Assembly: GCF_003675325.1 (NCBI RefSeq)
Contig: NZ_CP033073.1
Location: 1,364,001-1,428,000, forward strand
From: Streptomyces dangxiongensis
GTDB lineage: Bacteria > Actinomycetota > Actinomycetes > Streptomycetales > Streptomycetaceae
Length of the DNA: 64,000 bases
Reading direction: 5' to 3'
Part shown: positions 31,469 through 38,824 of the stretch, piece after piece
Position numbering within the stretch: position 1 is the stretch's first letter
How the letters are laid out: each line of letters begins with the position of its first letter
The notes under the pieces: model-generated
Database searches by the model: none
What the model was told of the DNA's origin: nothing
What the model saw: only the letters and a program-made list of their open reading frames with translations
Position numbers and translations under genes: made by a program

Positions 31469-32314
31469 TCAGGACGCCGCGCCCAGCAGGCCGGCCAGCC
31501 GGCGGGCGGTGGCGGCGTCACGGGCGGCGGTGAACGGCAGCACGTTGCCGCCGGTGACACGGAAGGGCTCGCCGGTCAGCGTGACGTGCGTGCCGCCCGC
31601 CTCCTCGACCAGGAGCAGGCCCGCCGCGTGGTCCCAGGCGGCCTCCCAGGAGAACGCGACGGCGTCCAGCTCGCCCCGGGCGACCGCGAGGTACTCCAGG
31701 CCCGCCGATCCGCACGGGCGCGGTGCGAGGCCGTCGGTCCACAGGGCCCGCAGGGCCCGCTTCTGCTCGTCGGTGGTGAAGTCCGGGTGGGAGACGGCGA
31801 CGGCGAGGTCCCGGCCGGGCGCGGGCGGGCCCGCGAACAGCCGCTCCCCGTCGAGGAAGGCGCCCCGGCCACGCACGGCGGTGGCGAGCTGGTCGCGCGC
31901 CGCCGCGTACGTCCAGGAAGCCATCACGGTGCCGCGGTGGGCGAGGGCGACCAGCGTGCAGAAGCCGTCGTCGCCGTGCACGAACTGGCGGGTGCCGTCG
32001 ACCGGGTCGACGATCCAGACCGGCGCGTCGCCCTGGAGCGCCTCGTACACCGCGGGGTTGGCGTGCACCGCTTCCTCACCGACCACGACCGAACCGGGCA
32101 GCAGGGCGCCCAGGTCGCCGGTGAGCCGCAGCTCGGCGAGGCGGTCGGCGTCCGTCACCAGGTCGTGCGGACCGCTCTTCTGGTCCACCTCGTGCTCGGC
32201 GAGGCGGCGGAAGCGGGGCAGGATCTCGGCCGCGGCCGCCTTGCGGACGGCCTCCTCCACGTCGGCCGAGCAGCGGGCGAGAAACTCCTCGATGGTTTCC
32301 GTTTCTTCGATCAT
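31469..32314 (-). CDS. Inositol monophosphatase-family protein
   Basis: 281 residues. The metal-binding motifs are all there: a GEEA site ([12 protein letters not shown]), [15 protein letters not shown] (W-x2-D-P-x-D-G-T) and [19 protein letters not shown] (W-D-x-A-A-G). Members hydrolyse inositol monophosphate, histidinol phosphate or [16 protein letters not shown] fits the DxVTDAD metal contact. Substrate not resolved. The remnant of a gamma-glutamyltransferase lies about 100 bp before its start. Confidence 0.9.
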
Positions 32315-32839: not shown

Positions 32840-33541
32840 ATGAGCGAACAGACACTTCTCTCACAGGCCAGGACACTGCACGATCTGATCCCCGGAGAGG
32901 CATGGCGGAGCCTGACGGCACTCCCCCATCGGTCCCATACCGCCGGGCAGACCCTGTTGCGGCAGGGAGAAGCCGGGACGCATGTGTTAGCCCTGATCCA
33001 GGGCCTGGTGAAAGTGGTCCGCAGGAGCGTGGACGGCCGTGACAAACTGCTGTCCTTCCGTGGCCCGGGGGAAGTGCTGGGCGAAGTGGCGGTACAGGAC
33101 GGCAATGCCCGGCTCGCCGACGTTCTGACTCTTACGAAGTGCAAAGTCGCTTCGGTTCCGGCAGCAGCGTTCCGAGACCTGGTAAGGCAGTACGACCTCA
33201 CGGAGACGCTGAACCGCCTCGCACTCAGCCGCCTGCGGGAACAGACCGAGGCGGGCGAAGGGGATCTGGACCAACGGCTCGCGGCGACGCTGCTGCGCCT
33301 CATGGCCCTCTCCGGCGGCCATTCCTTCCGCCTCACCCGACTGGAGCTGGCCCAGCACCTCGGTGTGGGGCGAGGGACCGTCAGCGAGGCACTGCGGCGC
33401 CTGGAACCGGGCTGTGTGCGGGCCGGCAGGACATCCATCGAGGTCGTTGACGAGCACTGGCTGCTCAGGACACTGCAACGGCGGGCCTCCACCCGCCGCG
33501 CGAGTCGCCGTCCCGAGACCAGTGGCCGGGCCGTGCGGTGA
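32840..33541 (+). CDS. Crp/Fnr-family transcription regulator
   Basis: 233 residues from the ATG 32840, with TAGTTT 6 nt upstream and no ribosome site, so probably leaderless. The N-terminal cyclic-nucleotide fold includes LLRQGEAGTHVLALIQGLVK and a phosphate-binding cassette GEVLGEVAVQDGNARLADV with Glu and Arg in suitable places. A dimer helix leads to the C-terminal winged helix LTRLELAQHLGVGRGTVSEA. It probably senses a cyclic nucleotide. A canonical Crp palindrome begins 19 bp after its stop, before a cyclase-like gene on the same strand. Confidence 0.88.
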   Translation: MSEQTLLSQARTLHDLIPGEAWRSLTALPHRSHTAGQTLLRQGEAGTHVLALIQGLVKVVRRSVDGRDKLLSFRGPGEVLGEVAVQDGNARLADVLTLTKCKVASVPAAAFRDLVRQYDLTETLNRLALSRLREQTEAGEGDLDQRLAATLLRLMALSGGHSFRLTRLELAQHLGVGRGTVSEALRRLEPGCVRAGRTSIEVVDEHWLLRTLQRRASTRRASRRPETSGRAVR

Positions 33542-33559
33542 TCCGCGACGCTCCGCCGA

Positions 33560-33575
33560 AGTGACGGTCGTCACA
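33560..33575. promoter_or_regulatory. Crp-type palindrome before the cyclase-like operon
   Basis: AGTGACGGTCGTCACA contains GTGA-N6-TCAC with complementary arms (GTGACG/CGTCAC), the classical Crp half-site arrangement. It lies between the Crp gene stop and the ATG at 33708. Confidence 0.6.
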
Positions 33576-33707
33576 CTCCATCGGTTCTGGGAGAGCAGAG
33601 CGCTCCCCTCTCCTCGGCGAGGCTCATGGGGCCCGCCACCGGCGCCCGCCGTCCGTGCCGAACGGAACCCGTTCCCTCGGCCGGCGGATCCTCGCGGAGG
33701 AGACACC

Positions 33708-34556
33708 ATGCACGACGACAGTCCCGAACTGCCCACGACGACCGCGGATCCCCACCATCGCAGCCGCCCGCTTCCCCCGTACCGCGGCATCCTTGCCGTG
33801 GACATGAAGGGGTTCACCCGACGCCCGGCCATCGAACACGAGGTGCTCAGCCGGGCGTTGCCCGAGCTGCTCCGGACCTCGCTGGAGCATGCCGGGTTGG
33901 CGGACGTGTGGAACGGCCGGCTGTTCCCCGCCACCACCGGCGACGGCTACATCCTGGGGTTCGACCCCACGCTGATGCCTCTGGTGATCCACCCCTGGCT
34001 TCACACGCTCCAGGACGTCCTCGCGGAACTCGACGCTCACGCCCTCGGGACGGCCCGGATCAGATTGCGGGTCGGCCTCCACATCGGTCCGCTGCCCGAC
34101 ACCGCGGACGCGTTCGGCGGCAACGGAACGGCCCGTACCGACACGCACCGGCTGCTCGACTCCCGTCCCGTCAGGGCCGTACTGGCCGACCACAGCGAGC
34201 ACGTTACGTATGTCGCGGCCGTCTTGTCGGACCGCTGCTACACGGACGCGGTCGTCAGCGGGTACGCCGGGCGGCACCCGCACGCGTTCATCGAGGTGCC
34301 GGCGACCGTCGACGGCAAGCCGTTCGCCCAGCGGGCCTGGCTGTACGTGCCGGCGCCTTCCGGTCCGCTGCCCGGCCGGACCACTTCCGCGGACCGCGCC
34401 CAGGCCCCCGCCGCAGCAAACCCGAGCCGCGCGGTCACCGGCACGCTCCGTGCCGACCGGGGCATCATCAACACCGGCCTCGTCCGCGGCGGGCAGCATC
34501 TGACCAACCTCGACCGGTCCGCGCGCCCGGAGCCGGAGGCCGGTCATGACGCCTGA
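33708..34556 (+). CDS. Class III nucleotidyl-cyclase-like protein
   Basis: 282 residues from the ATG 33708 after GGAGGAG. Residues 27-215 resemble a class III cyclase: GILAVDMKGFTRRP puts the first metal Asp at 32, FPATTGDGYILGF the second at 79, and RLRVGLHIGPLPD follows. In the region where VNxAaRL normally supplies the transition-state Asn and Arg, the sequence is RTDTHRLL: the Arg is present and the Asn is not obvious. The C-terminal tail is Pro/Ala-rich and ends in GIINTGLVRGGQH, a motif shared with the next protein. It may make an unusual cyclic nucleotide for the Crp upstream; activity unproven. Confidence 0.7.
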   Translation: MHDDSPELPTTTADPHHRSRPLPPYRGILAVDMKGFTRRPAIEHEVLSRALPELLRTSLEHAGLADVWNGRLFPATTGDGYILGFDPTLMPLVIHPWLHTLQDVLAELDAHALGTARIRLRVGLHIGPLPDTADAFGGNGTARTDTHRLLDSRPVRAVLADHSEHVTYVAAVLSDRCYTDAVVSGYAGRHPHAFIEVPATVDGKPFAQRAWLYVPAPSGPLPGRTTSADRAQAPAAANPSRAVTGTLRADRGIINTGLVRGGQHLTNLDRSARPEPEAGHDA

Positions 34557-36642
34557 AACCGGACCGGACGACACTTTCGACGCGCTCCCGCCCGAACTCG
34601 CCGGTATCCGGGGGACGGTGGTCGTCGCCCCGAACGGGACAGTCAACACCGGCACCGTCCACGGCGACCAGCGCTACGCCATGACGGACTCCCCGGCGCC
34701 GGCCGGGACCGGCGTACCCCTGGCGCGCCAGGGGCCGGTCCGGGCCAAGGACCTCCAAGCGGCCCGGCTTCGCTTCGTACGGCCCGCCGGCTACGCCGCC
34801 GGTCTCGACGCGCTCGGCTCCGGCGTCCTGTTCGTCACAGGGGCGCCCGGCACCGGCCGGCAGACGCTGGCCCTCAACCTCCTCGCGCACGGCTGCGCCG
34901 ATGCCGCACTGGTCCAGATCGACGGGGCCGTGAACCTGGCGCACTGGCGGCCGCGGGCCCGCGGAGTGCGCGGCTACCTGGTGATGAACCTGACCGACCC
35001 CCTCTCGCTGCGGCCCTGGGACATCTCCCGCCTGGAGGCGCACCTGGAAAAGGCAGGTGCCCGGCTGGTCGTCGTCCTGCGGGAGACGACGGAGCTGGCG
35101 CGGGTCCTCGAGGACCGTCTGGACGTGACGGTGCTGCGTCACCGGCCGCCCGACCCGGTGAAGGTCTTCTCGCTCCACTACGCGGACTTGTGCCCGGACG
35201 CCGGAGAGCGGGCCCGTCGGCGCGCACGGGTGGGGCCACGGGCCCTCGCCGCACTGCTGCCTTCGGGGCTGCCACCGGGCAGGGCGGTGCGGGTGGCCGA
35301 GGCCCTGGCCCTTACCGGGCCGGAGGACCGGATGACCGCCGCCGCGCTGACGGCCCGGCTGGCCGCCGTCGAGGCCGCACGGCTCGTGGCCGAGGCGGAA
35401 GGCGATCCCACGCTGCTGGCCCACTTGCTGTCGACCTGCGTCCACCAGGGCCTGGGCCGGGACACGGTCCTCGGCCGGGCCGCGGAGCTGCTCAGCGTGA
35501 TCCGCGTGCACCACGATCCCGGCTGCCCGCCGCAGGCGACGGCGGACGACGGCGACACCGGCCGGCCGGCTCGCGCCCTTCGGCGGTCCGCCGACGCCTG
35601 GGCTTCAGGGAACGAGCCGACCCGCACGTCTGCCGCACAGGACGTCCTGGCGGACATCGGAGCCGGCTGCACGGCCGGTGAGGACGGTGACGGCGGCGGA
35701 ACCGTCGCCTTTCTGTGGCCCGCCGTGAGCGAAGCCGTCTGGGACGAGGTATGCCGGGAGAGGGCCGAGTGGCTGCCCTTCCTGCACGCCTGGCTCGGCA
35801 GGGCCCAGGACGAGGAGCAGACGGAGTGTGCCGGGCGTGCGGTGGCCGCTCTGGCGGCGCGCACGGCCGGACGAAGTCTCGGACTCCTCGCGGACCTCGT
35901 CCGCACCGGGCCGGAGACGGCTGCCGAGGTCGTGGGCCTCGCCCTCAACGCGTCGTCCCGCCTCTCCCCGGCCGCCGCCAGGGCGCACGCGCTGCTGGAC
36001 GAGTGGAGCGGCGCACCCGAACCGGCACTGCGCTCCGCGGTCGTGGCCGCGTGCCGGCCGGACACCGAGGGTCTGCCGGCCGAGGCCGCCATGCGCCTGC
36101 TGCGCACGGTGGTGGCCGCCCTGGGCGACGACGACGAGGCCGCGGCCACGGCCCTGCGCGTGTCGGGAACGCTGGTGCACCGGTTCACCACCGGAGCGAT
36201 GGGGACCAGGGAGGCGGTCGTGCGCGCTCTGGCCGCGTGGTCGGAGACCGAGGACGTGGCAGGACTGCTGGCCACCCTCACATTTCCCGCTCTCGTCGCC
36301 GAGGACCACGGCTGGTTCGGCGAGCGGTTGTCCGCCGGCCAGGAGACCGGGCCCCACATCGTCGCCCTCGTCTGCGCTGCCCTGGACGAGGCCGCGGCCT
36401 ACGGAGCCATGCGCGACGCCCTGCTGACCTGGTGCGCCGGGGCGGTCGGGAGCCCGGAACGCGAACACCAGTTGGACGAGCTGTTCACCCGGCTGGTCGG
36501 CAGCCGCCGCCCCGGCTGTCTGCGGCTGCTGCTGTCGATCGAGCGGGCCCCGGACACCACTCCGGGCAAGGCACTCGCCGAGCGGTCCCTCACCGAGTGG
36601 CGCGGTGGATCGGGTCCGGCCGCCGACGACCGGCCGGCGTGA
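34546..36642 (+). CDS. P-loop NTPase with C-terminal helical repeats
   Basis: 698 residues; start overlaps the cyclase gene by 11 bp. Residues 22-43 contain GTVNTGTVHGDQR, the same NTG...GDQ pattern as the cyclase tail. Walker A is GAPGTGRQT (99-107) and a likely Walker B is RLVVVLRE (173-180). Beyond about residue 230 the protein is rich in short Ala/Leu helices, HEAT/ARM-like, to the end. This resembles STAND-type regulatory ATPases of Streptomyces conflict or signalling loci, where repeats sense a trigger. No enzyme domain is fused; function is inferred from layout only. Confidence 0.65.
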   Translation: MTPETGPDDTFDALPPELAGIRGTVVVAPNGTVNTGTVHGDQRYAMTDSPAPAGTGVPLARQGPVRAKDLQAARLRFVRPAGYAAGLDALGSGVLFVTGAPGTGRQTLALNLLAHGCADAALVQIDGAVNLAHWRPRARGVRGYLVMNLTDPLSLRPWDISRLEAHLEKAGARLVVVLRETTELARVLEDRLDVTVLRHRPPDPVKVFSLHYADLCPDAGERARRRARVGPRALAALLPSGLPPGRAVRVAEALALTGPEDRMTAAALTARLAAVEAARLVAEAEGDPTLLAHLLSTCVHQGLGRDTVLGRAAELLSVIRVHHDPGCPPQATADDGDTGRPARALRRSADAWASGNEPTRTSAAQDVLADIGAGCTAGEDGDGGGTVAFLWPAVSEAVWDEVCRERAEWLPFLHAWLGRAQDEEQTECAGRAVAALAARTAGRSLGLLADLVRTGPETAAEVVGLALNASSRLSPAAARAHALLDEWSGAPEPALRSAVVAACRPDTEGLPAEAAMRLLRTVVAALGDDDEAAATALRVSGTLVHRFTTGAMGTREAVVRALAAWSETEDVAGLLATLTFPALVAEDHGWFGERLSAGQETGPHIVALVCAALDEAAAYGAMRDALLTWCAGAVGSPEREHQLDELFTRLVGSRRPGCLRLLLSIERAPDTTPGKALAERSLTEWRGGSGPAADDRPA

Positions 36643-36686
36643 TCCACCCCCTACACCCCATGGCACTCATGACAGGGAGATCCACG

Positions 36687-37406
36687 ATGACGTTGTCCCC
36701 GCACCTCGGCCTCTTCGCCCGCGTGGAGCGGGACCTGGGCAGCCGGGAGCCACTCACCGGGCTCCGGTCGGACGAGGGGTCCGATGCCCCGGCCGCCGGC
36801 CTCACCCTGGCCGAGGCACGGCCCGTGCTCTACGACCGCTCGCAGCCGCCCACCGTACGGACCGCGCTGTGGTACCAGGTCGTCGCGCTGTCCCGCGAGG
36901 ACACGGCCGGAAACGGCTGGCGGCTGGGTGCGGTGTGGCTCGCGCTACCCGGACTGCGCCGCCATGCCTCCACCATCGTCCGACGCTTCGGCACCGACCG
37001 GGACGACGTGGAGGCGGAGATGCTCACCGCCTACCTCGAGACACTGCGGACGGTCGAACCGTCCACCCCTGATCCCGGCTCCGTGCTGCTGCGCGCCGCG
37101 TGCAGCAGCGCCTGGAACGCCGCCAAACAGGCGCGGCCCGAGAAGACCGTGGAGGACATCCAGAGCACGGTGGACTCCCGCGACGGCCGGGGGGCCCTGT
37201 GGCAGGCGGAGTTCGACGGCCCTGACCGGCCGGACGGTCTCGGCGCGACCCTGCGGATCACCGTCCCGGCCGAGCGGGCGGAGGGTGTGCGGATCGGCGC
37301 CCTGGCCACGGAATGGGGCCTGGCCGCTTCTGTCTCGGAAGCCTGCGGGGTGCGGCGGGGCCGCAGGATCGGCACGCTGGCCCTGCGCCCCGGGAGCCGC
37401 GGATGA
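36687..37406 (+). CDS. Sigma-factor-like protein (region 2 only)
   Basis: 239 residues from the ATG 36687 (AGGGAGA upstream). Residues 60-140 resemble sigma-70 region 2: WYQVVALSREDTAGNGWRL, then ASTIVRRFGTDRDDVEAEML with an acidic helix typical of ECF region 2, and a helix SVLLRAACSSAWNAAKQARP. No clear region 4 follows; the rest is Asp/Gly-rich then ends SEACGVRRGRRIGTLALRPG. It may recruit or compete for RNA polymerase. The stop overlaps the next start (ATGA). Confidence 0.55.
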   Translation: MTLSPHLGLFARVERDLGSREPLTGLRSDEGSDAPAAGLTLAEARPVLYDRSQPPTVRTALWYQVVALSREDTAGNGWRLGAVWLALPGLRRHASTIVRRFGTDRDDVEAEMLTAYLETLRTVEPSTPDPGSVLLRAACSSAWNAAKQARPEKTVEDIQSTVDSRDGRGALWQAEFDGPDRPDGLGATLRITVPAERAEGVRIGALATEWGLAASVSEACGVRRGRRIGTLALRPGSRG

Positions 37407-37675
37407 CCGGACGCCCGCAGACCCCCCTGACCTTCCGGGAGGTCCTCGACCTGCCGGTCAGCGTCGACCTGAGGACGGCGGCCCGCGCCTACGGGATATG
37501 CCTGGCCACGGCCTACAAGCTGATCGCCCTCGGCACCTTCCCCTGCGAGACGGTCCGTGTCGGCCACCGTCATCGCGTCCTCACCGCCCATCTGCTGTCC
37601 GCGCTGGGCATCGAGGAAAGGCCTGTCTACGCCGACGACCTCGGCGACGGCGTCGCGCTGACCCTCTTCGACTGA
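37403..37675 (+). CDS. Excisionase/MerR-like helix-turn-helix protein
   Basis: 90 residues. VDLRTAARAYGICLATAYKL is a standard helix-turn-helix of the AlpA/excisionase (winged helix) class, followed by a wing FPCETVRVGHRHRV. Start at 37403 overlaps the previous stop, so it is co-translated with the sigma-like protein. It could be the DNA-binding arm that the sigma-like protein lacks. No integrase is found beside it. Confidence 0.75.
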   Translation: MTGRPQTPLTFREVLDLPVSVDLRTAARAYGICLATAYKLIALGTFPCETVRVGHRHRVLTAHLLSALGIEERPVYADDLGDGVALTLFD

Positions 37676-37760
37676 GCCACCGCGGGCGGGTGTTCGGCCT
37701 TCCCTGCCTCCCGTCCCCGTCTTCTCTCCCCGACTGTTCCGTCTTCGGAGGTACTTCGTC

Positions 37761-38777
37761 ATGCCCACCTGTCTTGTCCTCGGCCCCGCGGCGCTCTTTC
37801 ACGAGGAGGTCGTGCGCCCGGTGTGTGAGGAACTGGAACTGTCCCTGATCCGCGCCGACCAGCTCGCCGACCCCAGCCCGCTGGGCGAGCTGCTCATCCG
37901 TCACCTCGTCGAAGAGGATGTGGTGATCGCCGACCTCACCGGGGGCCATCCGTCCGTGGTCCTCGGTCTCGGTGTCCGGCATGCGGCCGGCCGGCGCGCG
38001 GTGCGGCTCGGACAGGCCGGGACGGTGCCGGCGGGTCTCGACTCGCTCCCGGCCCTCGAGTTCCCGCCCCTTCCCCTCGGCCGGGCCGAGGCGCGCGCGC
38101 TGTTGCGGGCCGCCCTCGCCGAGGAACTGGATCTGACCACCGCGCCGGCGGCCGACGGGGACGGCGGCCACGTCGTGCACGAGCCGGGCACCGCGGACGG
38201 TACACCGGCCGCGCTGGAGGAAAGCGGCCCCGGACTGCTGGAGCTGGCGGTCGCGGCCGAGACCGAGATGGAGGCGATGGCGGAGGACATGGTCATGGTG
38301 GAGGCCGCTTTCATGGACCTGGCCGCGATGGGAGAGCTGTGCAGCGAGGACGTGATGCGGGCCAACCTGCCGGGGACTCCCATGAGCAGCCGGCTGGCCG
38401 TCATCAACCGGTTCGCCAAGTCCATCGAGGGCCCCGCGGATGAACTGGAAGCGGCGGCCTGGCGCTTGGCCGAGCGGATGGAGTTCACGCTCGGGGCGCT
38501 GCGGGCATTCCTGGAGTGGGCGCGCGACACCCCCCGGTCCGAATGGCCGGACTCCGTCGACAGCCTGCTCGACCAGGTGATCGAACAAACCCGGGAGATG
38601 CGGGAGGCGGCCACCGGCGTCGAGGATTTCGGGCCCATGCTCATGTGGATCGGCCGGACCAGCAGCCGGCTGCGCAGGCCGAGCCGGAAGATCGCTGCCT
38701 CGGTCCGGACACTCCTCGGCATTCTGTCGCCGTTCGAGGAGTGCGAGCGGATGGCGTACGTACTCAAGGAGGCCTGA
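37761..38777 (+). CDS. Protein with an NDT/TIR-like nucleotide-binding domain and a helical C-terminal domain
   Basis: 338 residues from the ATG 37761 after CGGAGGT. Residues 1-110 have the alternating fold of nucleoside 2-deoxyribosyltransferase-like/TIR-like conflict domains: LVLGPAALFHEEVVRPVCEE, LIRHLVEEDVVIADLTGGHP, and SVVLGLGVRHAAGRRAV (66-82). The last segment aligns with NPNVxYELGxAHAxGKP, but the Glu of ELG is Gly here (G69). A linker rich in Ala and Gly leads to a C-terminal half of amphipathic helices (about 160-338) without membrane segments. It may be the sensor or output of the locus. Confidence 0.6.
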   Translation: MPTCLVLGPAALFHEEVVRPVCEELELSLIRADQLADPSPLGELLIRHLVEEDVVIADLTGGHPSVVLGLGVRHAAGRRAVRLGQAGTVPAGLDSLPALEFPPLPLGRAEARALLRAALAEELDLTTAPAADGDGGHVVHEPGTADGTPAALEESGPGLLELAVAAETEMEAMAEDMVMVEAAFMDLAAMGELCSEDVMRANLPGTPMSSRLAVINRFAKSIEGPADELEAAAWRLAERMEFTLGALRAFLEWARDTPRSEWPDSVDSLLDQVIEQTREMREAATGVEDFGPMLMWIGRTSSRLRRPSRKIAASVRTLLGILSPFEECERMAYVLKEA

Positions 38778-38798: not shown

Positions 38799-38824
38799 GC
38801 CGGCCCGGCTCTCCCCGGGCCGGC
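38799..38824 (+). terminator. Terminator closing the island
   Basis: Perfect 10-bp stem GCCGGCCCGG / CCGGGCCGGC with a 6-nt loop, 21 nt after the last island gene. Confidence 0.8.

Follow-up and report, generated by a model that had tools for sequence, protein, structure and literature searches.

Here we describe a six-gene locus of Streptomyces dangxiongensis in which a class III nucleotidyl cyclase homologue and the predicted STAND-like protein encoded by the next gene carry matching short motifs in their tails. The locus lies at positions 32840..38777 of the window, i.e. the whole analysed stretch of 64,000 nucleotides (assembly GCF_003675325.1, contig NZ_CP033073.1, positions 1,364,001 to 1,428,000 of the forward strand), in a source genome of 8.16 Mb on two contigs. 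A sequence-only reading of the same DNA had described six same-strand genes with overlaps, which was reproduced by calling of the open reading frames (ORFs) on the window: all six are present as listed on the + strand, the cyclase and STAND-like genes overlap by 11 bp (34546/34556) and the SIG and HTH genes by 4 bp (37403/37406). The genes and features are:

32840..33541, + strand: Crp/Fnr-type regulator with a domain binding cyclic nucleoside monophosphates (cNMP) and a Crp helix-turn-helix (HTH) domain (PF00027, E=5.1e-20; PF13545, E=1.5e-9)
33708..34556, + strand: class III nucleotidyl cyclase homologue with a C-terminal tail (30-member family profile)
34452..34502, + strand: cyclase C-tail motif ADRGIINTGLVRGGQHL, the effector-side half of the pair, pattern N.G.[VLIA].G.Q
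34546..36642, + strand: predicted STAND-like P-loop protein with C-terminal helical repeats (AlphaFold2 model and Foldseek)
34627..34677, + strand: STAND-like N-tail motif APNGTVNTGTVHGDQRY, the sensor-side half, in a low-confidence tail, pattern N.G.[VLIA].G.Q
36687..37406, + strand: SIG, a 239-residue protein of a family of unassigned fold (no Pfam or PDB match above noise)
37403..37675, + strand: 90-residue HTH protein, HTH_17-like (PF12728, E=0.0014, below the gathering threshold)
37761..38777, + strand: NDT, a protein with a predicted NDT/DNPH1-fold domain (residues about 1-122) and a long helical C-terminal domain (AlphaFold2, Foldseek)
about 38799..38824, + strand: GC hairpin of 10 bp without T run, after the last gene

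The assignment of the first gene product as a Crp-type sensor, already made in the sequence-only reading, is secure from its two Pfam matches. The phosphate-cassette Arg is present (by eye), and the cNMP-binding part matches the PADLOC models PycTIR and PycC, with the PycTIR match confined to that part. Crp, for which the window locus offers no clear alternative as messenger receptor, is the proposed receptor of the relay discussed below. The second gene product alone gave no family match in Pfam, NCBIfam or PADLOC, and none of 30 family members matched a Pfam cyclase family or, at E<=1, any PADLOC model including PycC. The profile built from these 30 members, when searched against PDB, found 3mr7 (E=1.4e-7) and Ma1120 (about 1e-3), which places the family in class III and bears out the earlier call of a cyclase-like enzyme. 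Asp32, Asp79 and Arg148, which we take to be the two metal-binding Asp and the Arg of such enzymes, are invariant in the 30-row alignment. Homologues are numerous (434 matches, with those named among the 120 listed belonging to Streptomyces or Kitasatospora), and relatives occur in at least 94 of 394 genomes, the own one included, when five candidates were scored per genome.

The third gene product had been read as an NTPase with helical repeats resembling sensors of defence loci. The protein alone gave no useful match in Pfam, NCBIfam or PADLOC, a PDB sequence search with its family gave no match, and a fold search was used in place of the sequence search. The AlphaFold2 model has a mean predicted local distance difference test score (pLDDT) of 83.8, with mostly low values for residues 1-58. 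Six PDB entries were matched by Foldseek at E<=0.001, namely five SAMD9 chains (3e-6 to 9e-5) and Avs4 (6e-4), followed by the STAND protein 6mfv (2.6e-3) and NLRP3 (8e-3) among many HEAT/ARM-repeat proteins. The likeness to defence sensors is supported by the predicted fold, as is the assignment of the protein as a STAND-like sensor; the P-loop is degenerate.

The feature that ties these two proteins together was overlooked in the sequence-only reading. The cyclase C-tail motif ADRGIINTGLVRGGQ is matched by APNGTVNTGTVHGDQ in the N-tail of the protein that the next gene encodes, and by eye the two tails have A-x-x-G-x-x-N-T-G-x-V-x-G-x-Q in common. With the window counted in both sets, 119 of the 120 listed cyclases (of 434 matches) contain the pattern N.G.[VLIA].G.Q, and so do 34 of 36 STAND-like proteins within their first 150 residues; elsewhere in both sets it does not occur once (0 in 43,376 residues). 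The three exceptions P0049, P0153 and P0185 have near variants of it. Both partners of the window pair have NTG, and both partners of the paralogous pair in the same genome have NSG. Tails such as GQVVQAGTVNGGV were also considered as BASS3 motifs, which we rejected; the BASS3 peptide shown in PMC8086366 has another pattern.

Distant relatives have tails unlike those of the window, and many of them still match their neighbour, for example L042 with FSHTGEHGIQAYN and FSHSGEHGIQAYN, L113 with SGDGAQSAFGNTVGGD and TGDGAQSAFGNTVSRD, and L106 with VDGTISASTVIAGHNHGSI and VDGTIQATAVIGGENRGLV. For a pairing test, 84 fetched stretches and the window were searched, which gave 84 cyclase matches; 70 of them were kept (profile end at position 185 or later, tail of 30-160 residues, which removes TIR-like fusions and truncated calls), 53 of these had a same-strand ORF of 480-1000 residues within two genes, and 31 were left after clustering at 60% cyclase identity. 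Each cyclase tail was then compared with the first 130 residues of all partners, with ties counted as first. The cognate partner ranked first in 18 of 31 loci (about one expected; one tie, L122, counted) and among the top three in 25, the mean score was 59.6 for cognate pairs versus 29.7, and none of 10,000 permutations reached the observed sum. In the controls, reversed sequences placed the cognate first in 4/31 and among the top three in 6/31, residues 301-430 placed it first in 0/31 and the catalytic domain in 1/31.

The idea of a motif pair arose from loci L031-L056, and the loci L087-L146 were fetched afterwards. In this later set, the cognate partner ranked first in 18/28 and among the top three in 24/28 (reversed 3/28 first), and 0 of 20,000 permutations reached this result. 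Stricter clustering gave 14/17 first at 50% identity (reversed 2/17; 0 of 20,000 permutations) and 6/6 at 40% (reversed 1; 25 of 20,000 permutations), whereby identity clustering lowers shared ancestry and does not remove it. Furthermore, 31 of 46 later cyclases had a strong best match (score >=45) among eight neighbours, which was the next same-strand gene in 29 cases and started within the first 110 residues of the partner in all 31. The motifs of both partners thus change together in divergent loci.

A gene-neighbourhood comparison places this pair in a larger set. Profiles for Crp, X and PycTM were home-made from sibling loci, and the neighbour counts cover 83 of the 84 cyclases; the duplicates L051 and L054 (of L032 and L034) were excluded from later counts. 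Of the well over 100 places listed in the scan of 394 genomes, 60 stretches were fetched; a single-protein scan of genome contigs gave six loci, and some loci run to contig ends. Genes were called with a simple caller of our own, which did not pick the window Crp and split the L033 Crp into two pieces. Crp, cyclase and STAND-like protein form the core of the locus. Their homologues were not scattered, and the core is more than a chance grouping: for 59 of 83 cyclase homologues, one of the two preceding genes, on either strand, encodes a Crp. An X-like gene follows within five genes after the cyclase in 19/83 and a PycTM-like gene in 12/83. The order Crp-cyclase-STAND-X-PycTM was found in the same-genome paralogue L031 and in the siblings L032, L034, L052, L053, L055 and L056, and Pfam confirmed PycTM (PF18967) in all three siblings tested (L031 8e-15, L034 1e-14, L052 6e-14). 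The Pycsar link of the sequence-only reading is supported by PycTM in these three siblings, one of them the same-genome paralogue; the window locus has no PycTM. The X family gave only noise against PDB, and an assignment of X as SPFH/Band-7-like, made by eye, was dropped because no tool supported it. As a separate observation, L042, L041 and L145 have PycTM-like genes (home-made profile only) upstream of Crp and not downstream of the cyclase. In the distant cyclases L123, L125 and L128, with L127 and L129 similar, a TIR-like sequence follows the cyclase domain and there is no tail motif (by eye); in such fusions a single polypeptide would both make the messenger and contain the TIR effector.

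The window locus continues with SIG, HTH and NDT instead. Full-length NDT (E<1e-100) was found in 7 of 150 same-genus genomes, each time beside a cyclase, and six of the seven copies stand behind a Crp-cyclase pair on the same strand. The exception, L037 in genome G014 (G014:C280), has two cyclases back to back. One belongs to a Crp-cyclase-STAND-X locus; the other is on the opposite strand, HTH and NDT come after it, and directly upstream of it no Crp was called. Seven other genomes gave weaker or partial NDT matches, and the one inspected (L195) has no cyclase there. Locus L033 (G062:C50) carries both types of output in series, with two STAND-like genes, X and SIG-HTH-NDT behind one Crp-cyclase pair, as well as a protein of 58 residues which consists of hardly more than the motif. 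In L040, L185, L186, L187 and L039, small motif-bearing proteins, matched by eye only, are encoded between cyclase and SIG; in NDT loci without a STAND-like gene such a small protein apparently stands in for it. Near the cyclases of L046 (6333-7523), L050 and L099 we also noticed small proteins (148, 108 and 100 residues) that share a tail motif with them; the L046 pair reads GVQHGDVHIHNL and AVQHGDMHLHGL, and by eye the helical N-terminal part of its small protein resembles Bell.

The three downstream genes fared differently with regard to their earlier labels. The name sigma-like could not be retained for SIG, which alone had no match in Pfam, NCBIfam or PADLOC and whose family gave only noise against PDB. 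The HTH label is backed by the weak match to PF12728, albeit one that stays below the gathering threshold; matches to this protein occur in 69 of 150 same-genus genomes. Homologues of the SIG-HTH pair are scattered, occurring also in L188-L194 with no cyclase among the neighbours shown, and the pair is accordingly a separate module present in loci with and without cyclase. In L188 and L190-L194 large genes that by eye resemble regulators and protein kinases lie close to the pairs, which represent an uncharacterised regulatory module in several same-genus genomes. The last of the six genes had been claimed to encode an NDT/TIR-like nucleotide-binding output. Its model (pLDDT 84.7) matches DNPH1 with a Foldseek probability of 1.00 and template modelling (TM) scores to the target of up to 0.75-0.76, with a best E of 0.014 and none at or below 0.001; PF05014 was found in three distant homologues (P0147-P0149), and one PADLOC TIR-effector model was matched (E=1.1e-4). 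These results speak for the fold, but the Glu of NPNVxYELG, which we take to be the catalytic nucleophile, is Gly in the window protein, whereas it is Glu in L037, L039, L040 and P0147-P0149 according to the alignment. The window protein has therefore probably kept the fold and is probably not an active glycosidase. Lacking the nucleophile, it may function by nucleotide binding or by means of the helical domain; this is the weakest part of our model.

Regarding the ends of the locus, the claimed terminator was not borne out: no T-tailed terminator was found after 38777, and the GC hairpin has a fold z of -2.0, with 9 of 200 shuffles folding equally well. No sigma-70-type promoter was found at the locus. 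The block is flanked by two divergent genes, inositol-phosphatase-like and lipoprotein-like (by eye), about 6.6 kb apart. Their equivalents in L205 (genome G080) are only about 0.5 kb apart, hence we have one empty site; the 1.5-kb flanks at the loci of the other 28 relatives showed no copy of the first flanking gene. An inositol-phosphatase-like gene (by eye) lies near the system in the window (31469-32314) and, with 81% identity, in L186 (1693-2550; genome G001), a locus without STAND-like gene, and this neighbour possibly marks a preferred insertion site.

On balance, we favour a sensor-gated second-messenger relay as the interpretation of the locus. In this relay, the STAND-like protein would sense a trigger with its helical-repeat domain, and its probably disordered N-terminal tail would present the motif matching that of the cyclase C-tail. 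Homotypic assembly of the tails, probably of the cross-beta (amyloid) type as in the HET-S/NWD2 and BASS/NLR pairs, would gather cyclase monomers, with polymerised tails, or tails collected on an activated STAND oligomer, raising the local concentration of cyclase domains. Since class III cyclases work as dimers with the active site at the dimer interface, gathering them would switch on cyclic-nucleotide synthesis. Crp would then bind the messenger and change transcription, with PycTM as a second receptor in the siblings. The outputs appear to be swappable, with X and PycTM in some siblings and SIG-HTH-NDT in window-type loci. A second-messenger circuit had been suggested before; the class III profile and the frequent Crp neighbour speak for it. 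The relay is further supported by the STAND-like fold, the matched and co-diverging motifs, PycTM in the siblings and the small motif-bearing proteins (by eye), and we infer the joint function, including a putative role in defence against phages or other invaders.

Several observations weigh against this picture. The STAND-like model reached TM-scores of only 0.16-0.19, with generic HEAT/ARM proteins following closely, and its Walker A motif GAPGTGRQT has Arg in place of Lys. Where we take the transition-state Asn of the cyclase to be placed, 3 of 118 scored sequences have Thr, i.e. the window protein and P0002 and P0005 (71% identity to it), and a small residue is aligned with the Lys of 3mr7, presumably the adenine-selecting residue (own reading of the alignment). 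Hence, the substrate cannot be named, and from the sequence both activity and substrate are uncertain. In five of the 31 pairs the cognate partner ranked 11th to 29th, i.e. there is no match, and 15 of the 46 later cyclases lack a strong match; part of the cyclase family therefore uses no such pair. Besides the window protein, a motif search of the own genome returned the paralogue with weak scores, E=0.03 for its STAND-like protein and E=0.8 for its cyclase tail, and an unrelated place at E=1.5. The search was insensitive, since the window's own cyclase tail was not returned. Finally, motif matching is what we see, not amyloid formation, and docking without fibrils is possible.

Such docking is the first rival to consider. 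The tails would then pair one-to-one, as a beta-zipper or on a shared scaffold, and the STAND-like protein would tether or restrain the cyclase. In its favour, the data speak for matching and not for polymerisation, and in some loci (L114, L144) the match is only 11-12 residues long. Nevertheless, the homotypic similarity, the order of C-tail and N-tail in adjacent genes, the richness in Gly, Asn and Gln and the low-confidence tail are traits of the amyloid pairs as described in PMC7889193, and we regard plain docking as unlikely, although as a serious competitor.

Equally unlikely in our view, and again to be taken seriously, is a physiological regulator of development or antibiotic control instead of a conflict system, with Crp and SIG-HTH as the true outputs. 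Crp is the most constant partner (59/83), the window locus is devoid of PycTM and no nuclease was recognised there by Pfam, NCBIfam or PADLOC. In addition, cyclic AMP affects Streptomyces development. However, the distribution is patchy (48 of 150 genomes, own included) with an empty site in one relative, and a predicted STAND-like sensor, PycTM in siblings and TIR-like fusions in distant members (by eye) are less expected for such a regulator.

The exchange of the transition-state Asn by Thr raises the question whether the window cyclase is weak or dead and serves as a nucleotide-binding adaptor, with the actual catalysis left to the paralogue at G000:C2:3.789 Mb, whose locus has a similar motif pair together with PycTM. 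The Arg and the two metal Asp are still present, however, and the two relatives P0002 and P0005 have Thr as well, which makes this explanation rather improbable. Least of all do we expect a DNA-level repeat or a Gly-rich compositional artefact behind the motif similarity: although 7 of 17 codons are identical in the window pair and the reversed control (4/31) lies slightly above expectation, 9 of 17 residues differ, nucleotide identity is 31/51, the controls stay far below the cognate result and the matched motifs vary widely between loci.

If the relay exists as outlined, the loci could represent a large undescribed actinobacterial class, in which STAND/NLR-type sensors turn on the synthesis of cyclic nucleotides by prion-like (amyloid) templating, with private co-evolving motifs and exchangeable Crp, PycTM, TIR or NDT-like outputs; on this generalisation we are slightly more doubtful than convinced. 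Each sensor-cyclase pair would have its private motif, hence several relays could work in one cell with little cross-talk. An amyloid link would in this case feed a diffusible and amplifiable messenger. NLR signalling of the amyloid type would thereby be connected with cyclic-nucleotide immunity as in Pycsar, and there would be a testable mechanism by which the cyclases of such loci stay off and are then switched on. The 31 dereplicated loci with independent motif pairs also represent a natural collection for studying the specificity of homotypic motifs.

The gene set had not been recognised as a described system in the sequence-only reading, and we agree insofar as no description was found in the literature searched; likewise, no report on short-motif pairing with a class III cyclase was found in it, whereby most subscription papers lie outside this literature. 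Excerpts of other studies provide close comparisons. Like Pycsar, the loci combine a class III cyclase, a cyclic-nucleotide receptor and, in siblings, PycTM (PF18967). Unlike Pycsar, 0 of 30 cyclases match PycC or any PADLOC model, the window locus lacks PycTM, and a separate STAND-like protein, a Crp regulator and motif coupling are present. For CBASS, no CD-NTase was found among the PADLOC matches of the six window proteins. The NDT protein has the domain fold of DNPH1/nucleoside 2-deoxyribosyltransferase, with PF05014 in three distant homologues, and differs from it by Gly in place of Glu and by the long helical C-terminal domain.

Cyclases as STAND effectors, coupled via EAD or death-like adaptors, are described for iSTAND2/EAD and bDLD3 in Kaur et al. 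2021 (PMC8195603), and Kaur et al. 2020 (PMC7159879) name cNMP cyclases and a CRP-like factor in related conflict systems. There as here, a STAND-type protein is coupled to a cNMP cyclase through a homotypic module; their module is an EAD or death-like domain, whereas ours is a short Gly/Asn/Gln-rich tail motif, and Crp is a frequent neighbour. The closest parallel is given by the BASS/Bell-NLR pairs of filamentous bacteria and the fungal HET-S/NWD2 pair, in which, according to excerpts of PMC7889193, one motif stands at the effector C-terminus and its counterpart at the N-terminus of the NLR encoded by the adjacent gene. The excerpts describe such short-motif pairing for the bacterial effectors Bell, CHAT and TIR. 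Moreover, amyloid-like aggregation in vitro is reported for the BASS3 peptide (excerpts of PMC8086366), and motifs are described for fungal PNP_UDP effectors (excerpts of PMC12261475). The window pair resembles these by its similar motifs at the effector C-tail and the adjacent STAND-like N-tail and by the STAND/NLR architecture, the latter with low TM-scores. It differs in that its effector is a class III cyclase. This short-motif matching between a STAND-like protein and a cyclase is what is new here, and there would be a case for more if amyloid gating were shown.

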